From: Planctomonas sp. JC2975
GTDB lineage: Bacteria; Actinomycetota; Actinomycetes; Actinomycetales; Microbacteriaceae
Reading direction: 5' to 3'
DNA length: 64,000 nt
Assembly: GCF_012985205.1 (NCBI RefSeq)
Contig: NZ_JABEKS010000004.1
Location: 124,001-188,000, forward strand
Shown: positions 18,540-42,035 of the stretch, one piece after another
Layout: each line of letters begins with the position of its first letter
Numbering within the stretch: the first letter of the stretch is position 1
The notes under the pieces: model-generated
Seen by the model: only the letters and a program-made list of their open reading frames with translations
What the model was told of the DNA's origin: nothing
The model's database searches: none
Translations under genes and position numbers: made by a program

Positions 18540-18553
18540 CAAACCCGATCGAG

Positions 18554-24060: not shown

Positions 24061-25119
24061 TCAGACGGCGGGAGTACTGTCTCGCAACGTCACGACGCCA
24101 CGGATCGGCGCCGCATCGGTGTCACCATCGGTGAGCGCGAGTTCGAGGGACTGTTCGCCGAGGTCGCGCAGCGGCAGCGACACCGTCGTCAGCGATGGCA
24201 CCACGTCCTGCAGCATCTCGATGTCGTCGAATCCGGCGACGGCGATCTCGGTTCCGGGCATGATCCCGCGCTCCCGCATCGCCGTCATGGCGCCGACCGC
24301 CATCACGTCGGTGACGGCGAAGACGCACTGCGGACGGATGCCGGCATCCAGCAGCGCGAGCATGTCGCGATATCCGCCGTGCCGCGAGAATCCGCCGTGC
24401 ACGATCGCCGATTCCGCCGGACGGATGCCGTGTCCGGCCAGAGCGCCCAGGAACCCGCTCGCGCGATCCGCAGCGGTCGTCAGGCCGGCCGGACCGGCGA
24501 GTACGGCGAAGTCGCGATATCCGCGACCGATCAGGGCTTCGGCCAGCTCCGCCGCGCTTTCGGCATTCAGCACCGGAACCGCCCTGAAGCCGTTCGCCCG
24601 CGCGCCGATCAGCGCGACGCTGCCGCCCTGGCTCTCCACGGCGTTCAGCTCTGCAGCGATCGCTGCCTCGGTCGTCTCGTCGACGTAGCGGCTTCCGACG
24701 ACGATCACGGCCGTCGGACGCTGGCCGCGCAGAGCGGCGATCGTCTCCACGACGTGCTCAGGCTCTGTGCCGGCTGAGGACATCGTCACGACGAGGCGAT
24801 GACGGGCCGCGGCATCCACCACGCCCGCCGTGATCGCCGAGAAGTACGGGTCGGCGATGTCGCCGAGTACCAGCGCGACGGTGCGGCTCGTGCCGCGTGC
24901 GACCGCCTGCGCCTGCACGTTGGTCGTGTAGCGAAGCTCGAGCGCCGAGGCCTCCACCTTCGCCTTGAGCTCCGGGTTCACCGTGCGCGTGCTGCCGTTG
25001 AGTGCCCGGGACGCCGTCGCCAGTGAAACGCCGGCGTGCCGTGCGACGTCGGCCAGCGTGGGAACTGACGATGTCGCGCCCGATTCCTCACCCAGTGTGG
25101 TGTCGGTCCCTGTTGCCAC
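24061..25119 (-). CDS. LacI-family transcriptional regulator
   Basis: A 352-residue repressor with the HTH at residues about 20-45 (TLADVARHAGVSLATASRAL), hinge helix (NVQAQAVARGTSRTVALVL) and a sugar-sensing domain (AVTDVMAVGAMTAM, EIAVAGFDDIEMLQDV). It starts at GTG 25119 with AAGGAG upstream. It lies directly downstream of the two permease genes on the same strand, 132 bases on, so it is likely in their operon. It is the best candidate to bind the GAAAGCG-type operators at 27168-27251 and 36551-36641, by inference. Confidence 0.92.
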   Translation of the reverse strand: MATGTDTTLGEESGATSSVPTLADVARHAGVSLATASRALNGSTRTVNPELKAKVEASALELRYTTNVQAQAVARGTSRTVALVLGDIADPYFSAITAGVVDAAARHRLVVTMSSAGTEPEHVVETIAALRGQRPTAVIVVGSRYVDETTEAAIAAELNAVESQGGSVALIGARANGFRAVPVLNAESAAELAEALIGRGYRDFAVLAGPAGLTTAADRASGFLGALAGHGIRPAESAIVHGGFSRHGGYRDMLALLDAGIRPQCVFAVTDVMAVGAMTAMRERGIMPGTEIAVAGFDDIEMLQDVVPSLTTVSLPLRDLGEQSLELALTDGDTDAAPIRGVVTLRDSTPAV

Positions 25120-25251
25120 TGCTGCTCCTTCGCACGCCGACCTCGGCGGTCCTCCTCACGATTCTCCCGCACACCGTAGGCAACCGCTGGTCGCAGCCGA
25201 GCGCAGCGACGGCACTCGGCGCCGGCGTCGCGGCGGAGGCCGGAAATGGCG

Positions 25252-26160
25252 CTACTTGATGCCGGTGGTGGCGATGCCTCGGATGAGGAAACGCTGGCCG
25301 ACGAGGAACGCGAGGAAAACGGGTATCAGCGACACGACCGACATGGCGAACAGAGCTCCCCAGTTGCCGCCCGTCTGGTTGTCGATGAACTGTCCGAGAG
25401 CCACCTGCACCGTCCACGTGTGCGGCTGGGTCAGGTAAACGATCGGGCCGAAGAACTCGTTCCACATCCAGATGAACGTGAAGATCGTCGTCGTCGCCAG
25501 GGCCGGCGTCATGAGGGGCAGGATGACGCGGAAGAAGATCCGCGGATGCCCGCAGCCGTCGATGCGCGCCGCCTCGTCGAGCTCGCGCGGGATGCCGCGG
25601 ATGAACTGCACCATCAGAAAGATGAAGAACGAGTCCGTGCCGAGGACCTTGGGCAGGATCAGCGGCCAGAAGGTGTTCAGCATGTGCACGAACGAGAACA
25701 TGATGTACTGCGGCACCAGCGTCACCTGGAACGGCAGCATGATCGTCAGCAGCATGATCGTGAACGCGACCCGCTTGAACCGGAACTCCAGCCGGGCGAA
25801 CGCGTAGGCGGCGAGCGAGCAGGCGAGCAGGTTTCCCAGGATCGCGCCGAGCACGATGATGATCGAGTTGCCGAGGTAGAGGCTGAACGGATCCGACAGC
25901 GCGTTCCAGCCTGCGGTGTAGTTGCTCCACTGGAAGCTGTTCGGAATGATGCTCGCGTCGGTGAAGATCGCGTTGTTCGGTCGCAGCGAGCTGACGACCA
26001 TCCACAGCAGCGGATAGAGCATCACGAACGCCAGCAGGATCATGATGACGTGCTTGGCGACGCTCCACACCGAGCGCTTCACGCCACGCGACGCGGACCG
26101 GCTGCGCCTGCGCTCCTTCTCCGGCACCACGAGGGCTCGGGTTGCGGTCTCAGTTGTCAT
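25252..26160 (-). CDS. Carbohydrate ABC transporter permease, MalG type
   Basis: A 302-residue CUT1 permease: hydrophobic first helix VIMILLAFVMLYPLLWMVVSSLRP, the EAA loop ELDEAARIDGCGHPRIFFRVILPLMTP and the terminus FLIRGIATTGIK. It overlaps the upstream MalF-type gene by 11 bases. It should form a membrane channel with that partner and receive substrate from the Tat-type binding proteins encoded at 28695 and/or 36673. Confidence 0.93.
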   Translation of the reverse strand: MTTETATRALVVPEKERRRSRSASRGVKRSVWSVAKHVIMILLAFVMLYPLLWMVVSSLRPNNAIFTDASIIPNSFQWSNYTAGWNALSDPFSLYLGNSIIIVLGAILGNLLACSLAAYAFARLEFRFKRVAFTIMLLTIMLPFQVTLVPQYIMFSFVHMLNTFWPLILPKVLGTDSFFIFLMVQFIRGIPRELDEAARIDGCGHPRIFFRVILPLMTPALATTTIFTFIWMWNEFFGPIVYLTQPHTWTVQVALGQFIDNQTGGNWGALFAMSVVSLIPVFLAFLVGQRFLIRGIATTGIK

Positions 26161-27073
26161 AGAACACCCAATACTTCGAGGTGGCGAACGTCACGGCCGT
26201 GATGATCGCGATGATGATGAACAGCAACCACGCCATCGCGGATGCGTAGCCCATATTGAATTGGTTGAAGCCCTGCTGGTACAGGTACAGCGTGTAGAAC
26301 ATGGTCGAGTCCGAGGGACCGCCTGTTCCTCCCGACACCACGAACGCCTGCGTGAACGACTGGAACGCTCCGATCAGCTGCAGGATGATGTTGAAGAAGA
26401 TGATCGGCGAGAGCATCGGCAGCGTGATCCGGAAGAACCGGGTCCACCATCCGGCTCCGTCGATCGACGCAGCCTCGTAGTACATGTCGGGAATCTGGCG
26501 CAGGCCGGCGAGGAAGATGATCATCGGGGCGCCGAACGTCCACACGTTCAGGATGATGATCGTGCCGAGCGCGTACTGCGGGTCGGAGATCCATCCGGGC
26601 ATGTTGTGCAGCCCGAACAGCCCCAGCACCTGGTTCACCAGGCCCGTCTGGCTGAAGATCTGACGCCACAGGATCGCGACCGCGACCGAGCTGCCCAGCA
26701 GCGACGGCAGGTAGAACACCGACCGGTAGAACGGCAGCGCCCGCATCCCCTTGTCGAGAACGAGTGCCGCCGCGAGCGCGATCACCAGCTGGATCGGCAC
26801 CGAGATGAACACGTACTCGAAGGTGACGCGCAGCGAGTTCAGCAGGCGCGCGTCCTGGAACATGCGCACGTAGTTGTCGAACCCGATGAAGTGCGGAGCC
26901 TGAATCAGGTTGTAGTTCGTGAACGACAACCAGAGCGACGCGATCATCGGACCGGCGGTGATGAGCACCAGGCCCAAGAGCCATGGCAGCAGGAAGAAGA
27001 ATGCCGCCTTGTTGTCGCGTTTGCCGGTCGTCTTCGACGACCTCACAGAACGCAACTCTTCGAAGACGCTCAC
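26150..27073 (-). CDS. Carbohydrate ABC transporter permease, MalF type
   Basis: A 307-residue CUT1 permease with FLLPWLLGLVLITAGPMIASLWLSFTNY as first helix and the EAA motif YYEAASIDGAGWWTRFFRITLPMLSP. It is the first gene after a strong promoter with two flanking operators in the 184-base gap to the BNR-4 gene, so the permease-lacI unit can be transcribed separately from the binding-protein/BNR-4 genes upstream. Confidence 0.93.
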   Translation of the reverse strand: MSVFEELRSVRSSKTTGKRDNKAAFFFLLPWLLGLVLITAGPMIASLWLSFTNYNLIQAPHFIGFDNYVRMFQDARLLNSLRVTFEYVFISVPIQLVIALAAALVLDKGMRALPFYRSVFYLPSLLGSSVAVAILWRQIFSQTGLVNQVLGLFGLHNMPGWISDPQYALGTIIILNVWTFGAPMIIFLAGLRQIPDMYYEAASIDGAGWWTRFFRITLPMLSPIIFFNIILQLIGAFQSFTQAFVVSGGTGGPSDSTMFYTLYLYQQGFNQFNMGYASAMAWLLFIIIAIITAVTFATSKYWVFYDN

Positions 27074-27167
27074 GCGAGCCCCCTTGTAATCGACACTGAA
27101 TACATGGTGCGGATCCGCCGGCGTCCCGCACTGGCTGACAGTACAGGACCGGTGGCGAAGTCACCCC

Positions 27168-27251
27168 GGAAAGCGCTTCCCGCCCGATGTCCGAGCAACG
27201 GTACCTGTAGGGACCCGTACTCGTCAAGCGCACTCAGAAAGCGATTTCTGA
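27168..27251 (-). promoter_or_regulatory. Operator-promoter-operator region of the permease operon
   Basis: Minus strand, in order of transcription: operator at 27235-27251 (in plus orientation CAGAAAGCGATTTCTGA), -35 TTGACG (27222-27227), 18-base spacer, -10 TACCGT (27198-27203), operator GGAAGCGCTTTCC (27168-27180). The operator centres are about 69 bases apart. The same 17-base operator sequence and the same order recur at 36551-36641 before the second binding-protein gene. Confidence 0.75.
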
Positions 27252-27257
27252 CACAGA

Positions 27258-28574
27258 CTAACATCCGTGCCCGCCTCCTCTGACCACGTCGCGGAGCACG
27301 ACCTCGCAACGGAAGTGCTGCGATGCCGTCATCTCCCCGCGGAACCAGAGCAGAAGACTGCGATCCGGGTCACCGGGAACCGCGATCGGGCGCAGATTGT
27401 CGACGTCCGAGCCGCAAGTGATCGCCTCCCACCTCCAGCTCGCGCCCGAATCCGTCGTTCGGCCGGCATAGATCTCGTGGTGTGCGGTGCGCTCGTCGGT
27501 CCGCGGGTCGAACGGAGTCGACAGGTAGACGACGTCCAGGTCGTCGGGGTCGATGACGGCGAGTCCCGTGTAGTCCTGCTCGTGCGGCAGCAGCCCGGCA
27601 CCCGCCTTGGCGAGCGGATGCCGCACCCAGGATCCGTCCGCCTCCAGCCGTGCGTAGACGAAGCGGTGGTCCAGCACCGGACGCATCCTGGCGAACTCCT
27701 CGTCGGGCCCGGGATCGTCGTCCCCGCGCGCCGAGAGGGTGGCGGCGATCGTTCCAGCCGCATCCCGACGGATGTCGGACGTCCAGGCGTGCGTGAGCGC
27801 TACGCCGCCGATCCGCTCCCCCGCACGCAGCACCGTCGTCAGCCCCACCTGCGACGCGCCATCGGTCTGCGGATCGAACGGATGCTCGTCGAACACGGAT
27901 CCGTCGCTCCTGCGCAGCGCGCCGCCCGCGAAGTAGCCGTGGTAGATCGAGTTGTCGTAGTCGCGCGGATGATGGTCCGTCGTGACCAGATCGATCCGGC
28001 CATCGGATGCCGCATACCGCGTGTACCCGTTGACGTAGCCGACCTTGGGCCTGGTGAAGACCTTGCCGGCATACGCCCACGTGTCGCCGTCATCGTCGGA
28101 GACGAGCACGCAGGGATCGTCGTTGACGGCCCTGCTGAAGCAGTACAGTCGTCCGTCCAGCTCGTGAAGATTGCAGTAGGTGACACCGCGCCCGCCGGTG
28201 AACGGAGCCCAGTCGAAGGTGTGCTCGGGTCCCCAGGTGGTGGGATCACCCGGCTCGCTGACTCGCCAGCACATCAGGTCGTTGGTCTTGTGCTTCGTGT
28301 AGGCGGCGAGCCAGCGGCCGTCGGCGCGTCGCCACAGCGCAGGAACGTCGTGGTCGTCCGTCTCGAACGCCTCGTGCAGCACGACGATCCTGGCCGTCTG
28401 CGACGCGAGATCGACAACGGTCAGCTCGACGTTCCCGGCTCGCGTCTCGCCCCCCGGTCCCTCCCCAGCGGCGATCGAGCCGACGACCAAGGTCTGCGTG
28501 TCCCGGTCGACGATGGCGCGCTCGTCCTGAAACCAGCACCAGGCCCCGTTGTCATTGATGACGTACTCGGTCAT
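27258..28574 (-). CDS. BNR-4 repeat beta-propeller protein (putative GH145/PL42-like rhamnosyl-uronate enzyme)
   Basis: A 438-residue protein built of propeller blades, with recurring Asp-box-like turns (VSDDDGDTWAYAGKVF, TTDSGASWRWEAI) and the BNR-4 (PF15892) stretch TTDHHPRDYDNSIYHGYFAGG. The beginning, DNGAWCWFQDERAIVD, is also characteristic. No signal peptide is visible, so it should be cytoplasmic. Related propellers include GH145 alpha-L-rhamnosidase and PL42/PL24/PL25 lyases, which act at rhamnose-glucuronate linkages. The assignment here is by fold and context only. It follows the first Tat-type binding-protein gene, with a 13-bp hairpin between. Ribosome site AAAGGAATCC precedes the ATG. 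Confidence 0.8.
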   Translation of the reverse strand: MTEYVINDNGAWCWFQDERAIVDRDTQTLVVGSIAAGEGPGGETRAGNVELTVVDLASQTARIVVLHEAFETDDHDVPALWRRADGRWLAAYTKHKTNDLMCWRVSEPGDPTTWGPEHTFDWAPFTGGRGVTYCNLHELDGRLYCFSRAVNDDPCVLVSDDDGDTWAYAGKVFTRPKVGYVNGYTRYAASDGRIDLVTTDHHPRDYDNSIYHGYFAGGALRRSDGSVFDEHPFDPQTDGASQVGLTTVLRAGERIGGVALTHAWTSDIRRDAAGTIAATLSARGDDDPGPDEEFARMRPVLDHRFVYARLEADGSWVRHPLAKAGAGLLPHEQDYTGLAVIDPDDLDVVYLSTPFDPRTDERTAHHEIYAGRTTDSGASWRWEAITCGSDVDNLRPIAVPGDPDRSLLLWFRGEMTASQHFRCEVVLRDVVRGGGHGC

Positions 28575-28634
28575 GGATTCCTTTCACGCGACCGCACGGC
28601 GTCGGGAACATCCGTCAGGTCGCAGGCAGCGATG

Positions 28635-28668: not shown

Positions 28669-28694
28669 AGTTCACGTGCGTCGATGCGTCTGGG

Positions 28695-30032
28695 CTACGA
28701 GTTGGTGTCCAGCAGGCTCTGGACCTCGGACTTGAACGCAGCGGCGGCATCGGCGGGAGTCGCGCGGTTGAAGATGACGTCCTGCGTGTGGCGCTGCGCC
28801 ACCTGGGCCACCGTGCTCGTTCCCTTCGGCGGCACCGGCGGCACCCAGCTGATCTCGCTCGTGACGTTCTGCATGTAGGCGATGGCGAGCTGGTCTGTCT
28901 TCGCGAGCAGCGGCGTGATCGTCTCGAGCACCTTCTCGTTCGTGGGAATGCCTCGATCGATCAGTTGCAGCTTCGCTGCCGACGTGTCGTTCAGGAAGAC
29001 GTTGATCAGGCCGCCGGCCTGCGCCGGATACTTCGTCTGCGCCGACATCGACCAGTACATCGACGGCTTGAGGTAGAGGCCGTTCTTCTTCGCCGAACCG
29101 GACGAGCTCGGCGGGCGGAGCAGCACCAGGTCACCGCCGTTCGCCTGGGCGAGCGCCGTGAGCTGGGAGTTCCAGTGCCATCCCATGGCGGACTTGCTCG
29201 TGCCGAAGAGCTCCTGCTGCACTGACGAAGCGATGTCGTTGGTGTACTGGTCGGCGGTGGGGCCGCCGCCGGATGCGAAGAGTTTCTTGACCATCGTGAA
29301 CCAGCTCGCGACCCCGTCGGCCGTGAAGGCGAGCTTGCCCTTGTCCGTGTAGAGCTGCTGGCCGTGCTGGTGCAGCCAGATCTGCAGATCCTGGTCGGCT
29401 CCGTACCACGACGTACCGGTGAAGGCGCCGCCGGAGGCCTTCGCGAGCTTCGTGCTCAAGGCGATGTAGTCATCCCAGGTCCAGGTCTTGTCGTCGGGGA
29501 GATCGACACCGGCCTTCTCGAACAGCGACTTGTTCGCGAACACGCTGTAGACCGTGTTGCCGGCGGGGATGCCGTACAGCTTGCCGCCCTGCGTTCCCGC
29601 GGCCAGCGACGATTTCAGAGGCGCCGTGTCGATGCTGCCGACGTTGCTCATGTCGAGCAGCGCGCCGCGGCCGCCGTACTCGGCGATGTACGCCTGGTCC
29701 ATCTGGATGATGTCCGGCGCCGTCTGCGCTGCCACCTGCGTGGACAGCTTGGTCCAGTACGTCGCCCACTCTCCGGGCGCCTGGGTGACAGTGACCTTCG
29801 GATGCGCCGTCGTGAAGTTCGTCACGATCGTGCCGGTGTACTGCGTGCGAAGCGGATTGGTCCACCACGCGAGCGTGAGCGTCGACTTCTTGAAGGCGTC
29901 GCCCGCGGCCGCCGTCGTCGTCGCGCCCCCGCCGGTCGGCGCGGAGGTTCCGCACCCCGCGAGTAGGAATGTCGTGCCGATACCGGTCAGTGCGAGCGCA
30001 CCGAACTGGCGCCGAGAGAGCTGCTGTGACAT
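28695..30032 (-). CDS. Sugar ABC transporter substrate-binding lipoprotein, Tat-type signal (paralogue 1)
   Basis: A 445-residue binding protein. The signal MSQQLSRRQFGALALTGIG has the twin-arginine motif SRRQF, then a hydrophobic stretch and lipobox LLAGC: a Tat lipoprotein. The mature part has the family-1 pattern (TLAWWTNPLRTQYTGTIVTNF, DIIQMDQAYIAEYGGRGALLDM, WVPPVPPKGTS). The ATG at 30032 has an excellent AAGGAGG site. It is clearly paralogous to the protein at 36673; the genes share 27 identical bases around the start codon and most protein motifs. It should feed the permeases at 25252-27073. The operator at 30101-30120 suggests control by the divergent LacI. Confidence 0.92.
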   Translation of the reverse strand: MSQQLSRRQFGALALTGIGTTFLLAGCGTSAPTGGGATTTAAAGDAFKKSTLTLAWWTNPLRTQYTGTIVTNFTTAHPKVTVTQAPGEWATYWTKLSTQVAAQTAPDIIQMDQAYIAEYGGRGALLDMSNVGSIDTAPLKSSLAAGTQGGKLYGIPAGNTVYSVFANKSLFEKAGVDLPDDKTWTWDDYIALSTKLAKASGGAFTGTSWYGADQDLQIWLHQHGQQLYTDKGKLAFTADGVASWFTMVKKLFASGGGPTADQYTNDIASSVQQELFGTSKSAMGWHWNSQLTALAQANGGDLVLLRPPSSSGSAKKNGLYLKPSMYWSMSAQTKYPAQAGGLINVFLNDTSAAKLQLIDRGIPTNEKVLETITPLLAKTDQLAIAYMQNVTSEISWVPPVPPKGTSTVAQVAQRHTQDVIFNRATPADAAAAFKSEVQSLLDTNS

Positions 30033-30100
30033 GTGGCCTCCTTGCCAAGCTGTGATCGAGCGGATCCGGCTGCGCGGAGCGTGCGTCACGGCAACCTCGT

Positions 30101-30138
30101 GAAAGTGAACGCTCACTTTCTAGAGTGCAGAATGCACT
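30101..30138. promoter_or_regulatory. Operators between the divergent binding-protein and lacI genes
   Basis: GAAAGTGAACGCTCACTTTC (30101-30120) is palindromic in 18 of 20 positions. A second palindrome, AGTGCAGAATGCACT (30124-30138), has perfect six-base arms. The core AGTGAACG-TCACT recurs at 31410-31425 before the beta-helix gene, so the LacI at 30297 probably controls both. Confidence 0.65.
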
Positions 30139-31399: not shown

Positions 31400-31427
31400 T
31401 TGACATCAATAGTGAACGATCACTAAT
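31400..31427 (+). promoter_or_regulatory. Promoter and operator of the secreted beta-helix gene
   Basis: TTGACA (31400-31405) is followed after 16 bases by ACTAAT (31422-31427). The operator TAGTGAACGATCACTA (31410-31425; 14 of 16 symmetric) fills the spacer and overlaps the -10, a classic repressor position. About 186 bases of leader follow before the ATG at 31614; I see no other element there. Confidence 0.65.
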
Positions 31428-34600: not shown

Positions 34601-36266
34601 CGTCGACGACATGAGCACGCCCGTGCTCACGGACCAGCCGCTGCGCACCAAGGTCGGCTCGCTCGACTACTTCGACTTCTTCGTCAACGGGTCGAACGTC
34701 GGCGACATGCTCGTCGATTACTTCCGAGTCAACACTGGCGCTCCCGTCGACTACGACGACACGGCGCTCGGCGCGGTCTCGGCTCACGCCGAGAGCGGCG
34801 ACGTCGCGCTGACCCCGACCCAGGGCGGAACGACCTACACCGGCACGACCGATCCGTACGACACCTCGGCGACGGTCTCGGTGACGCCGGACAGCCCGTT
34901 CGCGAAGCTGACGATCGGCGGAACGCCGGCATCCGCCGGTACTCCGGTCGAGGTCGCACTCGATGACGGATCGGACGGCGACGAGTCGGTGACGACGAAC
35001 GTTCCGGTCGTCATCACGGCCGAGAACGGCGCGCAGAAGACCTATACCGTCGCTCTTTCCAGGACGAATCCGAATCAGCTGGCGCGCCTGCGCGACCTCT
35101 CGATCGACGGGCTCACGCTCGATCCCGCTTTCTCGAGCGAACGTCAGGGAGCCGGCGATCCGTACACCGTCACCCAGGCCCTCGGCTCTGCGGTCTCGTC
35201 CGTGCACCTCACGTGGCGACTCGGCTGGGCGGGGCAGCAGGTACAGGTGAACGGCACGTCGCTTCCCTCGGGGACGACGGATGCGACGGTCCCTGTGCAG
35301 CCGGGCGCGAACACGATCGAGGTGGCCGTGGACTCGTATCCGGGCGACTCCGGCACGTACGTGATCGAGCTCGCCCGCGAGACAGCAGACTTCAGCGCGC
35401 TGAACGCCGCCATCGCCGACGCGGACGCCCTGGATCCGAACCGCTACAGCGCCGACAGCTGGACGGTGCTCATGGTGGCCAGGAACGCCGGAGCCGAGGT
35501 CGCGAAGAATCTCGGTGCGTCGCAGGGGCAGGTGGATGCGGCATCCTCAGCCATCGCCTCGGCGAAGTCGGCGCTCGTGCCTGCGGTGCTGACGCTGTCT
35601 GCGACTCCGGCCGAAGAGGCGTTCGCGACCGGAACGCCCGAGCCGGGCAGCGCTGTGCTGCACGCCACGCGGGCCGACGGCTCGACCGTCGTACTCAGCG
35701 ACGGCGACGTGACGGTCTCCGGATGGGATTCGTCGGCTGCCGGATCCGTCACCGTCACCTTCGCCGTGCGTCCCGGCCTCGCACCGACCGGATCCGCTCC
35801 CGTCACCGCGACCGCCACCTTCGTGTTCGCCCGCGCATGGTCGCCGACGGCTGCGTACACCACGGGCACGACCGTTGTGTACCAGAACACCCTGTGGTCG
35901 GCGTCCTGGTGGAGCCAGGGCCAGGCTCCCGGCGACCCGACCGGACCGTGGCAGCAGCTGCGCACCGCGTCCGACGGCACCGCCGTCTGGACCCCGACCC
36001 GCATCTTCGACACGGGCGACGTCGTGATCTACCAGGGGCAGCGGTACAAGGCCGACTACTGGACGCGCAACCAGACGCCCGGGGACGCGAATGGACCGTG
36101 GGAGCAGCTCGCCGCCACGAGTGACGGGACGACGCTGTGGACCGCATCCCGGATCTTCCACGCCGGCGACATCGTGAGCTACGACGGTGTGCTCTACTCG
36201 GCGAAGTGGTGGACGAGGAACGAGGTACCGACCGCGGCGGACGGGCCGTGGCAGCTCGTCGGATGA
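31614..36266 (+). CDS. Large secreted multidomain right-handed beta-helix protein with C-terminal carbohydrate-binding modules
   Basis: A 1550-residue exported protein. Residues 1-40 form a Sec signal (VVALTAAVVATVTGLAAIPPAAAS). Residues about 50-650 form a right-handed parallel beta-helix opening with TYYVDSQNGDDSQSGTTEATAWKSF, as in pectate-lyase-like and rhamnogalacturonan-degrading proteins, with many Asn-rich turns. Then come two carboxypeptidase-regulatory-like folds (about 660-830), a jelly-roll/laminin-G-like domain (about 830-1040), two cadherin-like beta-sandwiches (about 1045-1250), a FIVAR-like helical segment (about 1255-1320), a bacterial Ig-like domain (about 1321-1400), and three CBM5/12-type repeats (AWSPTAAYTTGTTVVYQNTLWSASWW and two like it, 1402-1550). 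The catalytic residues and substrate are unassigned. No LPXTG anchor is seen, so it is released or polysaccharide-bound. Confidence 0.85.
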   Translation: MSLFSTARRTRGLAVVALTAAVVATVTGLAAIPPAAASTTTGFTGYTDKAQLQATGRGVVQSGVLPVSDATVPSGSGTTYYVDSQNGDDSQSGTTEATAWKSFAHVNATVFQPGDRILLKAGSTWAASGDQVAKEAFDYTTWSNGVPTDVTEPAPTALVAPQGSGTAAAPIVISSYGTGNAPKLAGRGVVNDVLQLTNQQHWDISNLDISNVTDGFDPSVWQPGANQGLLPGEENPKTGDLRGIHVQGENAGTLSGFDIHDVFVHDVSGVTWSIGSAGLDRSKRTGGILFEGLKGDGRTVSRFDDVVISDDYVANTSFANVIFKQFSGMGTDRYQDRAPGWGDRAVAKASNTGVITEDPNWRPNTDIRISDNYLTNRDTQYGWDSLYLTSVQGATVEGNLIDGAGVSGIEMYYSDNIVVQNNEVAAILNRANAADSNALDGDRGTSNILMQDNYLHDSGEGVLLCGFGFGTSIVRYNVIQDVARNYVNPHGDSGVNVIYGNLMYNTRAPSSNNSVGFFNSSGTNGSVLTDKNRHYLYDNVFVNTLASVSGAALQASFPGVSFGNNAYYGPDVSAPAQDAHPTTSDPGIGDPSTAIANIAPGSASSPLIAAGTPVDLSQVAPGMAVTGASGTSALPVGSDFFGNALTSPPTIGPSSYTPASGKAVVVGIVRDQDGVAVPGAQVRYGSASLTSGADGRYAIEVPAGDYSLAATAAGYADGSPVAITVSAGQTLAEDLALGQTTSTVGTVTGTVTSGGKPIAGAEITLAQGTTTVATATSDANGVYTMSDVPMGTGYTLEAAKSGYQTASQSDVEVKPARTVTVDLTVSAEVGATHYAIDETFDNDPTGAFTQTSDGALVANTAPAVGSISVVDNPDQPGDKYLSIAKTSSSSGVLAVHNTSALGLTGTVTIEARIERTSTNTSANQVAMYSYGASDWNAANPASSANPAATFGFAKGQIMTHNVTGSSSVKNVVGYNVGQWYTVRNVVDLDTGTFDFYVDDMSTPVLTDQPLRTKVGSLDYFDFFVNGSNVGDMLVDYFRVNTGAPVDYDDTALGAVSAHAESGDVALTPTQGGTTYTGTTDPYDTSATVSVTPDSPFAKLTIGGTPASAGTPVEVALDDGSDGDESVTTNVPVVITAENGAQKTYTVALSRTNPNQLARLRDLSIDGLTLDPAFSSERQGAGDPYTVTQALGSAVSSVHLTWRLGWAGQQVQVNGTSLPSGTTDATVPVQPGANTIEVAVDSYPGDSGTYVIELARETADFSALNAAIADADALDPNRYSADSWTVLMVARNAGAEVAKNLGASQGQVDAASSAIASAKSALVPAVLTLSATPAEEAFATGTPEPGSAVLHATRADGSTVVLSDGDVTVSGWDSSAAGSVTVTFAVRPGLAPTGSAPVTATATFVFARAWSPTAAYTTGTTVVYQNTLWSASWWSQGQAPGDPTGPWQQLRTASDGTAVWTPTRIFDTGDVVIYQGQRYKADYWTRNQTPGDANGPWEQLAATSDGTTLWTASRIFHAGDIVSYDGVLYSAKWWTRNEVPTAADGPWQLVG

Positions 36267-36550: not shown

Positions 36551-36641
36551 CAGAAAGCGATTTCTGAAAGTGTCGTAGAGCGCTTGACGCCGCCCGAACG
36601 GGGTCTGGATAATGAGCGAAACGATGCTGGAAAGCGTTTCC
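36551..36641 (+). promoter_or_regulatory. Operator-promoter-operator region of the second binding-protein operon
   Basis: Operator CAGAAAGCGATTTCTGA (36551-36567), -35 TTGACG (36584-36589), 18-base spacer, -10 GATAAT (36608-36613), operator GGAAAGCGTTTCC (36629-36641). The first operator is identical over 17 bases to 27235-27251, and GCGCTTGACG around the -35 is also shared. Operator centres are about 76 bases apart, compatible with a repression loop. Confidence 0.78.
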
Positions 36642-36672
36642 CCGCGTGACCACAGCATGGCAAGGAGGCCAC

Positions 36673-38016
36673 ATGTCACAGCAGCAGATTTCCCGACGCC
36701 AGTTCGGTGCCCTCGCATTGACTGGAATCGGTACCACTCTTCTTCTCGCCGGATGCGGTACATCCGCGACTCCGGCAGGAGCCGGAGCGTCCTCGACGGC
36801 CAAGGCCGGCGATGCGTTCAAGAAGGCAACGCTCAACTTCGAGTGGTGGTCCAACCCCGTCCGCACCGAATACACCAACAAGCTCCTGACCAACTACACG
36901 ACCGCTCACTCGCAGATCACCATCAACCCGGCTCCGGGCGAATGGGCGACGTACTGGACCAAGCTGTCGACGCAGGTCGCCGGCCAGACCGAGCCCGATG
37001 TCATCCAGATGGACCAGGCGTACATCGCCGAGTACGGCGGACGTGGCGCCCTGCTCGACATGTCGACGGTCTCGAGCATCGACACGGCACCCCTGAAGGC
37101 ATCGCTGCCGGCGGGAACGCTGGACGGCAAGCTGTACGGCATCCCGACGGGCAACAATGCCTACGGAGTCGCGGCGAACAAGACGCTGTTCGAGAAGGCC
37201 GGTGTCAAGGTCCCCGACGACAAGACCTGGACCTGGGATGACTTCGTCGACATCTGCGACAAGCTGAAGAAGGGATCCGGCGGCGCCTTCACGGGAACGA
37301 ACTGGAACAGCGGCGACCAGGATCTGCAGATCTGGCTGCACCAGCACGGCCAGCAGCTCTACACGGACAAGGGCAAGCTCGGGTTCACGGCAGCCAACGT
37401 GACCAGCTGGTTCACGATGATCAAGAAGCTGTTCGACAACGGTGACGGCCCCACCCCCGACCAGTTCACGAACGATGTCGCGGCATCGCTGAACCAGACG
37501 TTGTTCGGCACCAGCAAGGCGGCGCTGGGCTGGATGTGGAGCAACCAGATCACGGCGTACCAGCAGTCCAACGGCGGCGACGTGGTGCTCCTGCGTCCGC
37601 CGAGCATCGCAGGCTCCGCGTCGAAGAACGGACTGTACTTCAAGCCGTCGATGTTCTGGTCGATCGGATCGCAGACGAAGTACCCGGCACAGGCCGGCGG
37701 CGTGATCAACTACTTCCTGAACAGCACGGAGGCCGGCAAGCTGCAGCTCGCAGAGCGCGGCATCCCAGCCAACGCGAAGGTGCTCGCCGTCGTCAAGCCG
37801 CTGCTGTCGACGACCGACCAGCTCGCGGTCAGCTACCTCGAGAACATCAAGTCCGAGATCAAGTGGGTGCCGCCGGTGCCGCCGAAGGGCACCAGCACCG
37901 CAGCTTCCGTCGCTCAGCGACACACGCAGGACGTCATCTTCGGACGGGCAACACCCGCCGACGCTGCAACCGCGTTCCGGTCGGAGCTGCAGAGCCTGAT
38001 CGACGCCGCCTCGTGA
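36673..38016 (+). CDS. Sugar ABC transporter substrate-binding lipoprotein, Tat-type signal (paralogue 2)
   Basis: A 447-residue protein, a close paralogue of the one at 28695-30032. It has the same twin-arginine signal (MSQQQISRRQFGALALTGIG, lipobox LLAGC) and near-identical blocks such as PGEWATYWTKLSTQVAGQTEPD, IQMDQAYIAEYGGRGALLDM and QDLQIWLHQHGQQLYTDKGK. Differences concentrate in spacer regions and loops. It has its own promoter and no permease genes of its own, so it most likely shares the permeases at 25252-27073, whose promoter carries the same operator. Downstream are an esterase-like and a GH106-like gene. Confidence 0.93.
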   Translation: MSQQQISRRQFGALALTGIGTTLLLAGCGTSATPAGAGASSTAKAGDAFKKATLNFEWWSNPVRTEYTNKLLTNYTTAHSQITINPAPGEWATYWTKLSTQVAGQTEPDVIQMDQAYIAEYGGRGALLDMSTVSSIDTAPLKASLPAGTLDGKLYGIPTGNNAYGVAANKTLFEKAGVKVPDDKTWTWDDFVDICDKLKKGSGGAFTGTNWNSGDQDLQIWLHQHGQQLYTDKGKLGFTAANVTSWFTMIKKLFDNGDGPTPDQFTNDVAASLNQTLFGTSKAALGWMWSNQITAYQQSNGGDVVLLRPPSIAGSASKNGLYFKPSMFWSIGSQTKYPAQAGGVINYFLNSTEAGKLQLAERGIPANAKVLAVVKPLLSTTDQLAVSYLENIKSEIKWVPPVPPKGTSTAASVAQRHTQDVIFGRATPADAATAFRSELQSLIDAAS

Positions 38017-38033
38017 CGTCGGAGGACGGATCC

Positions 38034-39245
38034 GTGGACTCAGGCGGCCGCACGTCGCCGCACCGCATCCTCGGGTCCGTCCCCTCGTCGTCCGCCATCC
38101 CCGGCTACGAGGACTGGCCGACTCACGCATCCGCCGCGGCGCCCTTCGCCGCGGCGGATCCGCGTTCCCAAGAACTTGCGGATGTGTTCGGGCTGCGCGA
38201 GCGGCCGGTCGTTCCGCAGGTCGACCGGGGCGCATCCGTCGAGGTGTCCGGCCTGCTGATCACGCCGCTGCGCTGGCGGATGCCGTACGGACCGCCGACC
38301 CAGGCCTGGGAGCTGCGACCGAAAGGCGCTCGGGGGCCGCTGCCCGGCATCCTCGCGCTGCATCCGCACGGTGGGCGACGCTCGATCGGTGCTGCACAAC
38401 TCGTCGATCTCGTCGGCGACCGGCCGGAGGCGCTTGCCAACCGACTGGCGCGCTCTGATGCCGTCGTGCTCGCGCACGACACGTTCTCGTGGGCGAGCAG
38501 GAGTTTCGATCTCACACGGCTGCCGCCGAAGCTCGCGCACACGCGTGACGCCCTCCTCGCGCTCTGGGCGGCCGATGGCCACGCGCCGAGCCCCGAGGAG
38601 GAGTTCGACGCGGTCTCCAGCGCCCACGAGGAGCTGATCGCGAAGGCGGCAGGCGCACTCGGACAGACCTTCGCCGGCATGGTCCTCGCGGACGATCTCG
38701 TCGCGCTCGACGTGCTCGCCGGCCTCGACGGAGTGGATGCCGCTCGACTGGCGACCGTCGGCTTCTCCGGCGGCGGCGGACGCGCCCAGCTCGCCGGCGC
38801 TCTCGATCCCCGGGTCGGCGCGACGGTGATCGGCGGCATGATGGCGACGTTCGAGTCGCTGATGCCCGACTACATCGAGGCCCACTCCTGGCTGCTGCAC
38901 AGCCCCGGCCTGCCGCGGGTCTCCGACTGGCCGGACATCGCCCGGATCGGACGCCCGCGCGAGCTCTTCGTGCTCTACGGCGAGCGCGACCCCCTCTTCC
39001 CACCTGCAGGCATGCGCGCGGCTCACGAACTCCTGCTGAACCTGCCCGGCTACCGCGGACGCTTCTTCGACGCCGGCCACGAGCTGACCCGGGAGATGGT
39101 GGATGCCATCGTGGACTTCCTGCGGTCGTGGCGCGAAGATGCGGCGCCGATCGGCTCCGCATCCGTCCAGCCGGCAACGCGCAAGGCGCCGCCCATCGCC
39201 GCGGCCTCGACAGACCATGCGGCGATCGACCGCGACCGTCGATAG
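38034..39245 (+). CDS. Alpha/beta-hydrolase (putative sugar-ester esterase)
   Basis: A 403-residue protein of the large alpha/beta-hydrolase type seen in carbohydrate esterases. The nucleophile elbow is VGFSGGGGRAQL, the acid is probably Asp in LYGERDPLFPP, and the His is in FFDAGHELTREM. GILALHPHGGRRS is the oxyanion-region strand. No signal peptide is seen, so it would be cytoplasmic. The GTG at 38034 is chosen because GGAGGA lies seven bases before it; an earlier GTG at 38013 overlaps the binding-protein stop and is also possible. By context it may remove acetyl or other ester groups from imported oligosaccharides. Confidence 0.78.
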   Translation: MDSGGRTSPHRILGSVPSSSAIPGYEDWPTHASAAAPFAAADPRSQELADVFGLRERPVVPQVDRGASVEVSGLLITPLRWRMPYGPPTQAWELRPKGARGPLPGILALHPHGGRRSIGAAQLVDLVGDRPEALANRLARSDAVVLAHDTFSWASRSFDLTRLPPKLAHTRDALLALWAADGHAPSPEEEFDAVSSAHEELIAKAAGALGQTFAGMVLADDLVALDVLAGLDGVDAARLATVGFSGGGGRAQLAGALDPRVGATVIGGMMATFESLMPDYIEAHSWLLHSPGLPRVSDWPDIARIGRPRELFVLYGERDPLFPPAGMRAAHELLLNLPGYRGRFFDAGHELTREMVDAIVDFLRSWREDAAPIGSASVQPATRKAPPIAAASTDHAAIDRDRR

Positions 39246-39293
39246 CCCCGACGTCCACACCGCAGCCCGCCGTCACCCCGGAGGAACCATCGC

Positions 39294-42035
39294 ATGACCG
39301 CTCAGCCGACCGCGCCGACGGACGGGCCTTCCGCCGACTCGGTGATCGAGTCCTTCCGCACTCCGCCTTCCGACAGCCGTCCGATGATGCGCTGGTGGTG
39401 GTTCGGTCCGGATGTCGAGCGCGGCGAACTGGCGCGCGAGCTGCGCGCCATGAGGGATGCGGGCATCGGCGGGGTCGAGGTGGCGTTCGTGTATCCGCTG
39501 TCGCGGGTGGAGCATCCGTTCCTCTCCCCTGAATCGCTGGATGACGTGGCGTTCGCCGCGCGCACGGCACGCGAGCTCGGGCTGCGTTTCGACCTCACCC
39601 TCGGCAGCGGCTGGTCGTACGGCGGCCCGCACATCGCCTCCGACACGGCGGCCCGCACGCTGCGCTGGGACGTGCGCGACATCGGCATGGACGCGCTCGA
39701 CCTGGGGACGGAGTCCGCGCATCCCGACGACGTCGTGGTCGCCGTGTTCGTCGCCGAAGGCACGGTGCACGACCGTCCGGGCGCGTTCGCGCAGGTGCCG
39801 GTGCGCGAAGGGCGCGTGCACGTCGGATCCGGACGCGGACCGCGCCAGCTCGCGATCGCGTGGTCCTCGCCGACCGGACAGCAGGTGAAGCGTGCGGCAT
39901 CCGGTGCCGAAGGGCCCGTGCTCGACCACTACAGCGCGGCAGCGACGGCCGCGCACCTGGCCGCCGTCGCGGATCCGCTGCTGGATGCCGTGCCTGCGGA
40001 GCTCGTCGGATCGGTGTTCTGCGACAGTCTCGAGGTCTACGACGCCAACTGGACGCCGCGCCTGCCGGCGGAGTTCCTCGCCCGTCGCGGCCACGACCCG
40101 ATCCCGGACCTGTGGCGGCTGCGTTTCGACGCTCCTGGTTCGGCGGAGTTCCGCGCCGAGTACTACACGACCCTCGGCGAACTGTACGAGGAGAACTTCC
40201 TCGACGTTGTGCGCGGATGGGCCGGCCGCCGAGGCGTTCGGTTCCGTGTGCAGAGCTACGGAGCGCCGCCGGCCCGGCTAGGGAGTTACGGTCATGCCGA
40301 CCTGGTCGAAGGCGAGGGCTGGGGATGGCGCGGCATTCCGCAGACCAGGTGGGCGTCATCCGCAGCCCATCACCTCGGTCGGTCCGTGGTCTCGGCCGAG
40401 ACGTGGACGTGGGTGCACTCCCCGTCGTTCCGCGCGACACCGCTCGACCTCAAGGGCGAGGCGCACGAGCACTTCCTGCTCGGGATCAACCAGCTGATCG
40501 GACACGGCTGGCCGTACAGTGCACCGGACGCCGCCGGGCTGGGCTGGTTCTTCTACGCCTCCGGCGCACTGGACGACCGCAACGCATGGTGGCCCGCCAT
40601 GCCGGCGCTCACGGAGTACCTCGCCCGGCTGAGTGCCCTGCTCCGCCAGGGCTCTCCCGTGCGCGACGTGCTGCTCTACCTGCCGTCATCCGACGTGTAT
40701 CCACGACTGGGGCCGGAGAAGGGCGGCAACCTCGATCTGTGGCGAACGCTCCGCGCGCACATCGGCGATGAGATCCCCGCGGCCATCCGCGACGCCGGAT
40801 TCGACTTCGACCTCGTCGACGACGACGCGCTCGATATCCTCTCGAACTCCGCATCGATCGGCGCCGCGTCGGCGAGGACGGCATCGATCGGCGAGAACAC
40901 CGCCATCGTGCTGCCGTTCGCCACGGATCTGCCCGAGCGCACGCGTCGCGCGCTCCGTGCCGCCGAGGCTGCCGGCGCCCTCGTCGTCTCCGTCGTCCCG
41001 GCAGGCTCGGAACTCGCGGGCGACGATCCGGAACGCTCTCGGCCTGAGGCCGCTGCGGAAACCGTTGTTGCCCCTGACGAACTCGCCACCGTGCTCCGCC
41101 TCGGTCGCTCGCCCGACCTCGTTCTCGATCCCCCGGCGCCTCAGGTCGGATTCGTGCACAGGGCGATCGGGGACGGGCACGCGTACCTGCTGGCGAACAC
41201 GGGACCTGAACCCGTGTCGTTCGTCGCCCATCCGCGCGAGTTGAGGAACGGATGGCAGCTGTGGCGTCCTGAGAACGGGCGCGTGACCGGCAGCGGCGAG
41301 GCGGGCACGCCGCCACGCGTGCGTCTCGAGGCGTACCAGGCGGTGGTGATCGCGACCGATGGCATCCGCGGTCAGGACTGGCTCGCGGGCCACGAAAACT
41401 CCGGCACGGATGCCGGCGAGTCCGTGCGCCGGACGCCGCACGACACAGCGGCGCCCTCTTCCGAGTCGTCGCCGCTGTCGACCGGATGGCGCGTCCGTTA
41501 CGACGACCGCGTCGACGTGGATCCGGTCGAGCTCCCGCACGACTGGCGGGCGGATCGCCCAGGATTCTCAGGCTCCGCGACGTACGACATCGCGTTCGAC
41601 GCCGAGACGCTCTGGCCGGGCGGCGTGCCGCACCGGGTGGAACTCGACCTCGGCGACGCCGTGCCCGAAGCGCCGGGCGACGGACGTGCGCTGCCTGGTG
41701 CGTCCTACCATGCGGGCGTCAAGCCACCGGTCTGCGACGTGGCGACGGTGGAGCTCAACGGACGGGCATGCGGCACGCTGTTCGCGCCGCCTTACGCGGT
41801 GGACGTGACGGATGCCCTCCAGCCAGGGCTCAACGTCCTCCGCGTGACCGTGTCGAACAGCACCGCAGCGGCGCTGACGGATCCCGAGGTGCGCGCAAGC
41901 GTCGACGAACTCGTCGCGCGATCACGCGAGCTCTACGGCATGCGGTTCGTGATGCAGGATCTGGACGCCGCGGGTGAGGGCCTGCGGTCGGGGCTGGTGT
42001 CGGTGCCGCGGTTGCGCTGGAGCGCCGGGGACTGA
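39294..42035 (+). CDS. Glycosyl hydrolase, GH106-like (putative alpha-L-rhamnosidase)
   Basis: A 913-residue protein whose start, PMMRWWWFGPDVERGELARELRAM, with RDAGIGGVEVAFVYPLS, is the hallmark of the GH106-type TIM barrel. It continues with FDLTLGSGWSYGGPHI, VFCDSLEVYDANWTPRLPAEF, and SAETWTWVHSPSFRATPLDLK. The C-terminal third holds beta-sandwich sugar-binding folds (VATVELNGRACGTLFAPPYAVDVT). No signal peptide is seen. GH106 enzymes remove alpha-L-rhamnose from rhamnogalacturonan and related glycans. The family call rests on recognition of the N-terminal motif, not a search. A GGAGG site precedes the ATG, 48 bases after the esterase gene. Confidence 0.78.
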   Translation: MTAQPTAPTDGPSADSVIESFRTPPSDSRPMMRWWWFGPDVERGELARELRAMRDAGIGGVEVAFVYPLSRVEHPFLSPESLDDVAFAARTARELGLRFDLTLGSGWSYGGPHIASDTAARTLRWDVRDIGMDALDLGTESAHPDDVVVAVFVAEGTVHDRPGAFAQVPVREGRVHVGSGRGPRQLAIAWSSPTGQQVKRAASGAEGPVLDHYSAAATAAHLAAVADPLLDAVPAELVGSVFCDSLEVYDANWTPRLPAEFLARRGHDPIPDLWRLRFDAPGSAEFRAEYYTTLGELYEENFLDVVRGWAGRRGVRFRVQSYGAPPARLGSYGHADLVEGEGWGWRGIPQTRWASSAAHHLGRSVVSAETWTWVHSPSFRATPLDLKGEAHEHFLLGINQLIGHGWPYSAPDAAGLGWFFYASGALDDRNAWWPAMPALTEYLARLSALLRQGSPVRDVLLYLPSSDVYPRLGPEKGGNLDLWRTLRAHIGDEIPAAIRDAGFDFDLVDDDALDILSNSASIGAASARTASIGENTAIVLPFATDLPERTRRALRAAEAAGALVVSVVPAGSELAGDDPERSRPEAAAETVVAPDELATVLRLGRSPDLVLDPPAPQVGFVHRAIGDGHAYLLANTGPEPVSFVAHPRELRNGWQLWRPENGRVTGSGEAGTPPRVRLEAYQAVVIATDGIRGQDWLAGHENSGTDAGESVRRTPHDTAAPSSESSPLSTGWRVRYDDRVDVDPVELPHDWRADRPGFSGSATYDIAFDAETLWPGGVPHRVELDLGDAVPEAPGDGRALPGASYHAGVKPPVCDVATVELNGRACGTLFAPPYAVDVTDALQPGLNVLRVTVSNSTAAALTDPEVRASVDELVARSRELYGMRFVMQDLDAAGEGLRSGLVSVPRLRWSAGD

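Follow-up and report, generated by a model that had tools for sequence, protein, structure and literature searches.

The locus described here lies in a window of 64,000 nucleotides analysed from the soil bacterium Planctomonas sp. JC2975, and it raises the question of which glycan is handled by a set of genes that pairs two binding proteins (SBPs) and two LacI-family regulators with only one permease pair. The evidence favours a set for the capture, import and splitting of plant-wall sugars in which rhamnose is joined to an acidic sugar; systems of this type are already known, and two of the enzymes look like candidate new branches of their own families. We think it probable, if well short of certain, that the locus serves the catabolism of rhamnose-uronate oligosaccharides from plant pectin through two regulatory arms sharing one ABC permease pair, with arm A devoted to rhamnogalacturonan-I (RG-I) and arm B perhaps to rhamnose-glucuronate. 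The RG-I backbone, its arabinogalactan side chains and gum-arabic-type glycans are unproven candidates for the source. An initial annotation had guessed at rhamnose joined to uronic acid, a guess that gains support from the YesO-like SBPs, the GH106 active site, the BNR-4 fold and an operator common to GH28 and KdgD.

Gene order and predicted operators

The genes listed in Table 1 are borne out as real by their open reading frames, third-position G+C, translations and Pfam matches, including the beta-helix, BNR-4 and GH106-like proteins, the two SBPs, the permease pair and the two LacI regulators already named in the initial annotation. Gene order is maintained in Humibacter albus DSM 18994 (G003) and Humibacter sp. 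RRB41 (G004), and synteny was found in three of the five Humibacter genomes tested. Compared with the window, G004 has three additional genes between BNR4 and permA, and its beta-helix protein is just 33% identical. Breakdown had been expected to be mostly intracellular, and the N-termini agree: that of the beta-helix protein is of Sec type and, judged by eye, no export signal is present on the BNR4, hydrolase, GH106, PL33-like or DUF2264 proteins.

Table 1. Predicted genes and candidate operator sites of the locus and its adjoining module, with positions in the window.
Feature	Position	Strand	Evidence
PL33-like lyase (heparinase II/III-like)	about 18768..20777	+	8r73 E 1.5e-69
DeoR-type HTH with sugar-binding domain	20768..21976	+	Pfam HTH_DeoR 64.4 bits, Peripla_BP_3 115.6 bits
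DUF2264, uronate-dehydratase-like (former GH154)	about 21973..23988	+	Pfam 370 bits
LacI1, LacI-family regulator	24061..25119	-	Pfam LacI 48.6 bits, Peripla_BP_3 91.1 bits
permB, ABC sugar permease	25252..26160	-	BPD_transp_1 72.8 bits
permA, ABC sugar permease	26150..27073	-	BPD_transp_1 47.4 bits
Candidate operator site A1, CAGAAAGCGATTTCTG	27235..27250	.	upstream of permA-permB-LacI1
BNR4	27258..28574	-	Pfam BNR_4 38.5 bits, cut-off 27.3
SBP1, Tat-type lipoprotein, YesO-like	28695..30038	-	nearest solved structure YesO 5z6b, E 4.4e-56
Candidate operator site B1, AGTGAACGCTCACT	30104..30117	.	between divergent SBP1-BNR4 and LacI2
LacI2, LacI-family regulator	30297..31343 (start about)	+	Pfam
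Candidate operator site B2, AGTGAACGATCACT	31411..31424	.	upstream of beta-helix gene
Secreted 1550-residue beta-helix protein	31614..36266	+	Pfam; Sec-type N-terminus
Candidate operator site A2, CAGAAAGCGATTTCTG	36551..36566	.	upstream of SBP2-esterase-GH106
SBP2, Tat-type lipoprotein, YesO-like	36673..38016	+	YesO 5z6b E 2.1e-54 and alignment
Alpha/beta-hydrolase	38040..39245 (start uncertain, 38013-38040)	+	motifs S243, D317, H347
GH106-type alpha-L-rhamnosidase	39294..42035	+	PF17132 155 bits, cut-off 29

The intergenic gaps contain two operator families that the initial annotation had missed. These predicted operators split the locus into the permeases and SBP2-esterase-GH106 under site A, and SBP1-BNR4/LacI2 and the beta-helix gene under site B. 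Site A1 has counterparts in the same place in G003 and G004, with 2-3 mismatches. Site A occurs in five places in G000 (none for the reversed-pattern control). Its three copies outside the locus fall within 41 kb, one each ahead of a gene for a secreted GH28 protein, a KdgD operon and a gene for DUF6807, in the neighbourhood of genes for PL26, RhaI and GH78. Allowing one mismatch, site A was not found near a KdgD operon in G003 and was found in one place in G001, where the reversed control likewise gave one. Exact matches to site B are confined to this locus in G000, G003 and G004 (reversed-pattern control, none), with none in G001; at up to two mismatches the window holds 4 against 1.22 expected, a count that 8 of 100 shuffles reach. 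These two mismatch-tolerant searches weigh against the two-arm reading.

The helix-turn-helix of LacI1, GVSLATASRALNGST, is similar to that of the LacI adjoining the KdgD operon, GVSLSTVSRVMNGST, and the LacI1 orthologues in G004 and G003 are 75-81% identical. In Streptomyces tuirus L094, the gene for a 50% identical relative of LacI2 and that for BNR4 are divergently oriented, and a palindrome resembling site B separates them. We infer, and propose, that LacI1 is a ligand-responsive binder of site A and that LacI2 binds site B.

These operators bear on a simpler alternative, under which the whole locus would serve the RG-I backbone, with near-redundant SBPs and a cytosolic BNR4 that splits the Rha-alpha1,4-GalA of RG-I oligosaccharides. 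The common permease pair and the presence, outside the locus, of PL26, GH28, GH78 and RhaI genes are in keeping with one substrate, but two distinct operators are kept in three species, and we regard this alternative as rather unlikely.

Binding proteins, and enzymes of the proposed arm A

SBP1 and SBP2 are paralogues with 73% identity, a relationship absent from the initial annotation and, being so close, a point against separate arms. Both carry a twin-arginine N-terminus and an LAGC lipobox (by eye). The nearest solved relative of both, YesO, is an RG-I binder, a resemblance that counts towards a single RG-I substrate; against 2uvh, SBP1 gives E 1.1e-21 and SBP2 E 5.5e-27. The contacts of YesO with delta-GalUA are reported as R25, N127, N254 and S286 (PMC7596534), and all four are kept in SBP2. 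SBP1 keeps two and has Thr in place of N127 and Ser in place of N254. At these two positions the site-A protein has Asn/Asn and the site-B protein Thr/(Ser or Thr) in all three species, and so consistent a change speaks against one substrate. In G313, two SBPs adjoin a relative of the beta-helix protein, and neither has Thr/Thr, which weighs against the two-arm reading. The ligands that we assign to SBP1 and SBP2 are predictions. The closest permB paralogue in the part of the genome examined (67% identical) adjoins a PcRGLX-type PL26 gene, beside which lies a permA paralogue with 62% identity.

The gene initially called an esterase does encode alpha/beta-hydrolase motifs (G-x-S-x-G, Asp and His), and a carbohydrate esterase is its probable class. 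Pfam gave no match at E 0.001 and NCBIfam nothing better than E 0.12; similarity to an acetyl xylan esterase is weak (E 3e-4), and the orthologues in G003 and G004 are 60-62% identical. The GH106 protein aligns with BT0986 (5mqm, E 2e-32) and keeps, as E247 and E369, the equivalents of E461 and E593, the catalytic glutamates of BT0986; the mutant chain of 5mwk carries Q in place of E461. The metal-site residues D458 and E561 have equivalents and E538 is aligned to Gln, at a site whose residues are described as varying within the family (PMC6828813). The best NCBIfam model for this protein is NF049897 (BT4145), at 283 bits far under the equivalog cut-off of 1300. BT4145 itself is described as an RG-I-specific rhamnosidase (PMC8002723, PMC6828813), and a GH106 of this type is a further point for the one-substrate alternative. 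Unlike the Bacteroides thetaiotaomicron RG-I locus (BT4145-BT4183) to which this match leads, the present locus has neither SusCD nor unsaturated galacturonidases.

In the two-arm reading that we prefer, arm A would be controlled through site A, probably via LacI1. SBP2 would catch an RG-I-type oligosaccharide, PermA and PermB would import it, the esterase would take off an acyl group and GH106 would cut terminal alpha-L-rhamnose in the cytosol; copies of the site-A operator also precede the GH28 gene and the KdgD-containing operon elsewhere in the genome. As in the Bacillus subtilis YesOPQ/YesR system for RG-I uptake, a binding protein and two permeases are coupled to cytosolic breakdown. Unlike that system, there are two SBPs and two operators for one permease pair, GH106 and BNR4 stand in place of YesR, and the Humibacter genome bearing the locus has no GH105/GH88 match over the cut-off.

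Beta-helix and propeller proteins of the proposed arm B

The secreted 1550-residue protein recognised in the initial annotation is real, and its family, left unnamed there, can now be given: judged by sequence, it is a distant relative of GH136. Known GH136 enzymes are lacto-N-biosidases, with a partner subunit or domain (LnbY or Lnb136I). The best phmmer match to lacto-N-biosidase structures has E 3.1e-16, and the top six Foldseek rows are GH136 (E 1.4e-12 to 2.2e-8), from a low-confidence model with pLDDT 51. Alignments to TnX, BsaX and LnbX identify a putative catalytic pair, D435 and D442, invariant in six alignment rows, of which one duplicates the window. The same Asp-x6-Asp arrangement is reported for ErLnb136, where the acid/base and nucleophile are D568 and D575, seven residues apart (PMC7335108).

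A true lacto-N-biosidase, with arm B importing amino-sugar disaccharides, would account for this homology, the Asp pair and the CBM5/12 modules. We nevertheless consider it highly improbable: the LnbX NCBIfam model scores just 43.7 bits against a cut-off of 2500, YesO is the nearest relative of SBP1, to which the GNB/LNB-binding protein (2z8d) is more distant at E 3.8e-7, and relatives of the beta-helix protein are tied to uronate genes. In G427 a relative sits in a glucuronate-type operon (UxuA, ManD, KDPG aldolase and a sugar kinase) whose permeases are 60-63% identical to those of the locus, 63% for permA, and in G313 one adjoins a GH115 gene. Neighbours of GlcA rather than GalA type also argue against RG-I as the one substrate. 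The accessory domains differ from those of known GH136 enzymes, Pfam finding CarboxypepD_reg, Cadherin-like and FIVAR-like stretches and three CBM5/12. These CBMs, of chitin/cellulose type, give no pointer to pectin.

The initial annotation had suggested comparing the BNR-4 protein with GH145 and PL42 structures. By Foldseek and VIA, its predicted structure (pLDDT 91.9) resembles PL25, GH145 and PL42 propellers, and BNR4 would be a cytosolic seven-bladed-propeller enzyme of this fold group. Foldseek rows 1-11 are PL25, PL42 and GH145-study proteins and 4irt (E 1.5e-13 to 1.4e-11, with 9e-9 for the row that follows); VIA rows 1-10 reach Z 29.5-32.5 (next 25.5), and the propeller fold scores Z 25.5 against lectins too. 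Against 7esk, whose fold is common to PL25 and GH145, the values are Foldseek E 1.6e-12 and VIA Z 31.0 (370 aligned, 3.3 Å). Identity in structural alignments to PL42, GH145 and PL25 propellers is 12-14%, and, unlike them, BNR4 is cytosolic. The GH145 reference, BT3686, has a posterior catalytic His48. Neither phmmer with the protein nor a five-sequence profile found a relative of BNR4 in the PDB at E up to 10, FoRham1 included, so PL42, PL25 and GH145 are not distinguishable and the active-site match is one of spacing. The residues concerned (H75, H95, Y133, R148 and Y184) are invariant in 33 of 33 relatives and again in all of a set of eight, three of which have no more than 26-28% identity; their spacing, and not a superposition, resembles that of H85, H105, Y150, R166 and Y202 of the PL42 L-rhamnose-alpha-1,4-D-glucuronate lyase FoRham1 (PMC8377490). 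We propose that BNR4 is a rhamnose-uronate lyase.

Arm B, under site B and probably via LacI2, would then begin with a small unit freed by the GH136-like protein, which SBP1 would bind and pass to the permeases of arm A; BNR4 would split it in the cytosol, with beta-elimination at the rhamnose-uronate linkage as the most likely reaction. These activities are predicted, as is the nature of the unit. Were it a disaccharide with a free reducing-end uronate, such as Rha-alpha1,4-GlcA, an unsaturated-uronyl hydrolase would be unneeded, consistent with the missing GH88/GH105: PF07470 exceeded its cut-off in none of five Humibacter genomes (B. subtilis control positive; in G001 the match was partial and weak, at 20.3 bits). 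UxuA was also found in none of the five, which weighs against the two-arm reading. Only tentatively would we go further and propose a route not described before, with the GH136-related protein as a uronobiosidase releasing Rha-GlcA from plant glycans, and the cytosolic BNR_4 protein as a member of a new lyase family that splits it to yield rhamnose and an unsaturated uronate that rearranges by itself, dispensing with GH88/GH105 and acting as a general disaccharide scavenger of Actinomycetes. One genome collection holds 144 confirmed BNR_4 relatives, and in Actinomycetes BNR4 is mostly a single gene. No other gene of this locus was found at 50% identity or more at 77 of the 80 named BNR4 loci, and BNR4 thus often works without them.

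The adjoining module and the significance of the locus

The heparinase/DUF2264 module was correctly described as abutting the locus, as it does in all three genomes having both. It has its own DeoR-type regulator, neither site A nor site B was found in it, and G001 has the module but no BNR4; it therefore cannot yet be counted as part of the same system. The heparinase II/III-like gene is real and is closest to PL33, with equivalents of N238, Y291 and H444 (BtPL33HA numbering), Y470 and F475. The DUF2264 protein (8oi4, E 8e-28; 9o4u, E 8.1e-22) aligns with eight of the ten active-site residues (N176, N177, W178, F181, Y229, R285, Y289 and Y354) of the Bacteroides caccae glucuronate dehydratase BcGDH, formerly GH154; the other two, E74 and R78, fall outside the local alignment and were assigned by the motif E63-x3-R67. 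The earlier label of possible glucuronidase has to be given up, members of DUF2264/GH154 having been reported to dehydrate terminal glucuronate and not to hydrolyse it (PMC12269599). The protein has 671 residues and extends at its C-terminus beyond BcGDH, which has about 400; unlike BcGDH, it has no GH88/GH105 partner in the genome.

Both modules might instead form one system for a polymer containing glucuronate, for instance a bacterial exopolysaccharide such as gellan; the PL33-like lyase and the dehydratase-like DUF2264 protein would then act on the same imported chains. Adjacency would fit, as would the reported cleavage by PL33 members of gellan, whose repeat contains GlcA and rhamnose (PMC11848413). 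Set against this are the separate regulator and missing operators, G001, the 8 of 9 examined relatives in which PL33 adjoins DUF2264 but the enzymes of the main locus are missing, and the inactivity, on the panel used in that source, of the sole Curtobacterium PL33 tested there (PMC11848413); we judge a joint system improbable.

The locus makes two enzyme groups testable. Together with its relatives it ties a distant GH136 branch to uronate catabolism, and it draws attention to a BNR_4 group with a PL25/GH145/PL42-type fold yet no solved sequence relative. Two SBPs whose residues contrast at two positions of the pocket, each with its own operator but with common permeases, offer a simple route to specificity rules. 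Finally, one operator of the locus is linked to pectin and uronate genes within 41 kb elsewhere in the genome, and the small regulon so outlined is open to expression tests.

Gene content and operators of the locus

The gene list of the initial annotation was confirmed gene by gene through ORFs, translations and Pfam: two LacI-type regulators (LacI1, LacI2), two permeases (permA, permB), a Pfam BNR_4 propeller protein (BNR4), two binding proteins (SBP1, SBP2), a 1550-residue secreted beta-helix protein, an alpha/beta-hydrolase (the probable esterase) and a GH106 enzyme. By locus, the closest relatives are Humibacter albus DSM 18994 and Humibacter sp. RRB41, in both of which the gene order from DUF624 to GH106 is conserved entire. 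RRB41 differs in carrying three additional genes (DUF6807, Gfo/Idh/MocA and cupin) between BNR4 and permA, and its beta-helix protein is a more distant version. No mention of Humibacter was found among the literature matches listed.

Two palindromes, each present twice in gaps between genes, divide these genes into a site-A arm (arm A: permA-permB-LacI1 and SBP2-esterase-GH106) and a site-B arm (arm B: SBP1-BNR4/LacI2 and the beta-helix gene). Site A gave four rows in the window, a count reached by 0 of 100 shuffles. Site B at up to two mismatches is not striking within the window alone, with 8 of 100 shuffles reaching the observed count. As the exact pattern AGTGAWCGNTCACT, site B is confined to this locus in the window's genome (two places), H. 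albus (one) and RRB41 (two), and is absent from a further Humibacter genome, G001; the reversed pattern gave no match. Both sites were found at the matching promoters of H. albus and RRB41, with 0-3 mismatches. Furthermore, Streptomyces tuirus carries a site-B-like palindrome with one mismatch between BNR4 and a 50% identical LacI2 relative.

Features and their coordinates (window positions unless a fetched locus, L, is named; the window is 124001-188000 of contig C4 in a 4.36 Mb genome)
Feature	Position	Remark
TIM-barrel (AP_endonuc_2), DUF993 and Gfo/Idh/MocA genes	3046-6538	possibly a sugar-oxidation cluster
Module versions in Microbacteriaceae (PL33-like/DUF2264)	12790-23988; L111-L124	two versions
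2-hydroxyacid dehydrogenase	17422-18459	
Site A	27235	palindrome CAGAAAGCGATTTCTG, before permA-permB-LacI1
SBP1 gene	28695-30038	
Site B	30104	palindrome AGTGAACGNTCACT, between SBP1-BNR4 and LacI2
Site B	31411	before the beta-helix gene
Site A	36551	identical to the copy at 27235, before SBP2-esterase-GH106
SBP2 gene	36673-38016	DNA 78% identical to the SBP1 gene over 1377 bases
Second 2-hydroxyacid dehydrogenase	L163:7709-8638	beside the site-A GH28 gene; 41% identical to 17422-18459
DUF6807 with Gfo/Idh/MocA	L009:745-3627	inserted in the RRB41 locus
DUF6807 with Gfo/Idh/MocA	L165:6597-8615	site-A gene in the window's genome
Rhamnose-isomerase relative	L053:8024-9202	Brachybacterium, close to BNR4

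Across the whole genome, site A occurs at five places with at most one mismatch (reversed control, 0): the two in the locus and three inside 41 kb on another contig, C1. The latter precede a secreted GH28 gene, a DUF6807/Gfo-Idh gene, and an operon of Gfo/Idh, an epimerase-family protein, KdgD (382 bits, cut-off 278) and a galactarate-dehydratase-like enzyme. The same region holds a GH78 gene, RhaI and a PcRGLX-type PL26 gene, the last of which lies next to permeases that share 62% identity with permA and 67% with permB. The LacI protein adjoining the KdgD operon has a helix-turn-helix resembling that of LacI1, not that of LacI2. In RRB41, a third site-A place precedes an operon recognised by its resemblance to the KdgD operon; in H. 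albus no site A was found at a KdgD-type operon at up to one mismatch. G001 has one match each for site A, at an epimerase-like ORF, and for the reversed control pattern.

Binding proteins and GH106

SBP1 and SBP2 share 73% identity, and the gene pair is, as judged from the sequences, an old or gene-converted duplication. The best solved match of both is Bacillus subtilis YesO (E 4.4e-56 and 2.1e-54), followed by the sugar-binding proteins 2uvh/2uvg (E 1e-21 to 5e-27). According to the available text of PMC7596534, YesO binds delta-GalUA-Rha-Gal from rhamnogalacturonan-I (RG-I), with R25, N127, N254 and S286 contacting the uronate; this numbering equals the chain index minus 20, which yields R, N, N and S at all four places. 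In the alignment SBP2 keeps 4/4 of these contacts, and SBP1 has Thr at N127 and Ser at N254. The distinction extends to three species, in which the site-A protein has Asn at both positions whereas the site-B protein has Thr at N127 with Ser, Thr or Thr at N254. Two PL26-linked binding proteins have Asn at N127 and, at N254, an alignment gap adjoining an Asn. The binding protein of a beta-helix operon in another genome, G427, has Thr at both positions and Gly at S286. The two binding proteins adjoining a beta-helix gene in a further genome, G313, depart from the pattern: at N127, N254 and S286 one reads Asn/Ser/Ser and the other Ser/Ser/Gly.

Aligned with BT0986, GH106 has both catalytic glutamates in register and retains D458 and E561, with Gln replacing E538. 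Its top NCBIfam model is BT4145 (283 bits, cut-off 1300), an RG-I rhamnosidase according to the available text of PMC6828813 and PMC8002723. Searches of Pfam, NCBIfam and solved structures gave no family assignment for the esterase.

The propeller and beta-helix proteins

A search of 59 relatives found BNR4 orthologues in 6, counting the window's own genome. The initial annotation had pointed to GH145 and PL42 propellers, and structure comparison bears this out at the level of fold. With an AlphaFold2 model (33 sequences, pLDDT 91.9), the top eleven Foldseek rows are PL25 and PL42 proteins and proteins from the GH145 study, together with 4irt, labelled a putative neuraminidase (E 1.5e-13 to 1.4e-11; twelfth row, 9e-9), and VIA gives Z 29.5-32.5 for ten PL25/PL42/GH145-type rows, ahead of a lectin at 25.5. 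H75, H95, Y133, R148 and Y184 are invariant among the 33 relatives, and an alignment that takes in three BNR_4 proteins only 26-28% identical preserves all five. Their spacing (H75-H95, 20; Y133-R148, 15; R148-Y184, 36) resembles that given in the available text on FoRham1 (H85-H105, 20; Y150-R166, 16; R166-Y202, 36; PMC8377490). This resemblance and the invariance suggest a lyase-type front pocket in BNR4, a putative lyase. Placement of BNR4 in PL42, PL25 or GH145 by sequence failed, as PDB searches, including one with a BNR_4 relative as query, returned no sequence relatives; we therefore do not assign it to PL42.

Orthologues of other locus genes (at least 50% identity) accompany BNR4 at 3 of 80 named loci, two in Humibacter (L018, L096) and one with LacI2 only (L094); flanks were annotated in part, with the neighbours of 18 loci read by eye and some loci short. 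A rhamnose-isomerase-like cluster lies at 5 of the 80. RhaI was dropped as a marker of BNR4 because strong matches, in 10 of 11 genomes tested, occur both with and without BNR4.

Lacto-N-biosidases of solved structure align with the beta-helix protein (best E 3.1e-16), the Asp pair included; against the LnbX NCBIfam model it reaches only 43.7 bits. Foldseek with a poor model (pLDDT 51, three-sequence alignment) placed GH136 in the best six rows (1.4e-12 to 2.2e-8; next row, 1.3e-4), fold matches that lend weak support to GH136 kinship. Among the literature matches listed, none tied GH136 to rhamnogalacturonan or glucuronic acid. Of the 297 genomes searched across the order, 20 contain the protein or a relative, and four of these were examined closely. 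In G427, a 43% identical relative is accompanied by UxuA (435 bits), ManD (694 bits, above cut-off), KDPG aldolase, a PfkB kinase and a protein of the mannitol dehydrogenase family, together with permeases that share 63% identity with permA and 60% with permB. In G313, the relative is 56% identical and its neighbours include a GH115 gene (186 bits) as well as an ABC system. Both contexts point to glucuronate.

The adjoining module and uronate metabolism

The heparinase II/III-like and DUF2264 genes do abut the locus, as the initial annotation had it; the reading of the two as one system was dropped because the module has its own regulation and because G001 carries it without BNR4. The heparinase-like protein is nearest to PL33 (8r73, E 1.5e-69), with N238, Y291, H444, Y470 and F475 kept. 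DUF2264 matches 8oi4 (E 8e-28), deposited as a beta-galactosidase, and BcGDH, a glucuronate dehydratase (E 8.1e-22); the active-site residues are retained. In PMC12269599, members of the former GH154 family are proposed to act as dehydratases whose products go to GH88/GH105. Of 249 genomes of the bacterial family, 34 carry a DUF2264 orthologue. Among the 29 DUF2264 genomes outside the genus, 13 match the GH88/GH105 model PF07470, and in 10 of these the match is no more than about 7 kb from DUF2264. The window, G001, G003 (H. albus), G004 (RRB41), G012, G149, G080 and G077 instead have a 2-hydroxyacid dehydrogenase in the module, and none of these eight genomes has PF07470 above cut-off. Since the two alternate among the genomes examined, the module may exist in two versions, one with GH88 nearby and one with the dehydrogenase.

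A GH88/GH105 hydrolase for unsaturated products was likewise rejected for the locus, no match lying above cut-off in the genome, and a UxuA route for glucuronate was rejected because UxuA is present in 0 of 5 Humibacter genomes. The PF04962 match in the window's genome (227 bits) is, judged from scores only, probably the related IolB and not KduI. Arm A is linked to RG-I through its binding protein, GH106 and the shared operator. Arm B is linked by its operator to this locus alone, and by two beta-helix relatives to glucuronate. We hypothesise that arm B handles a free disaccharide, in which case a GH88/GH105 gene would not be needed. Overall, a two-armed rhamnose-uronate system of the pectin type is the reading that the evidence favours.
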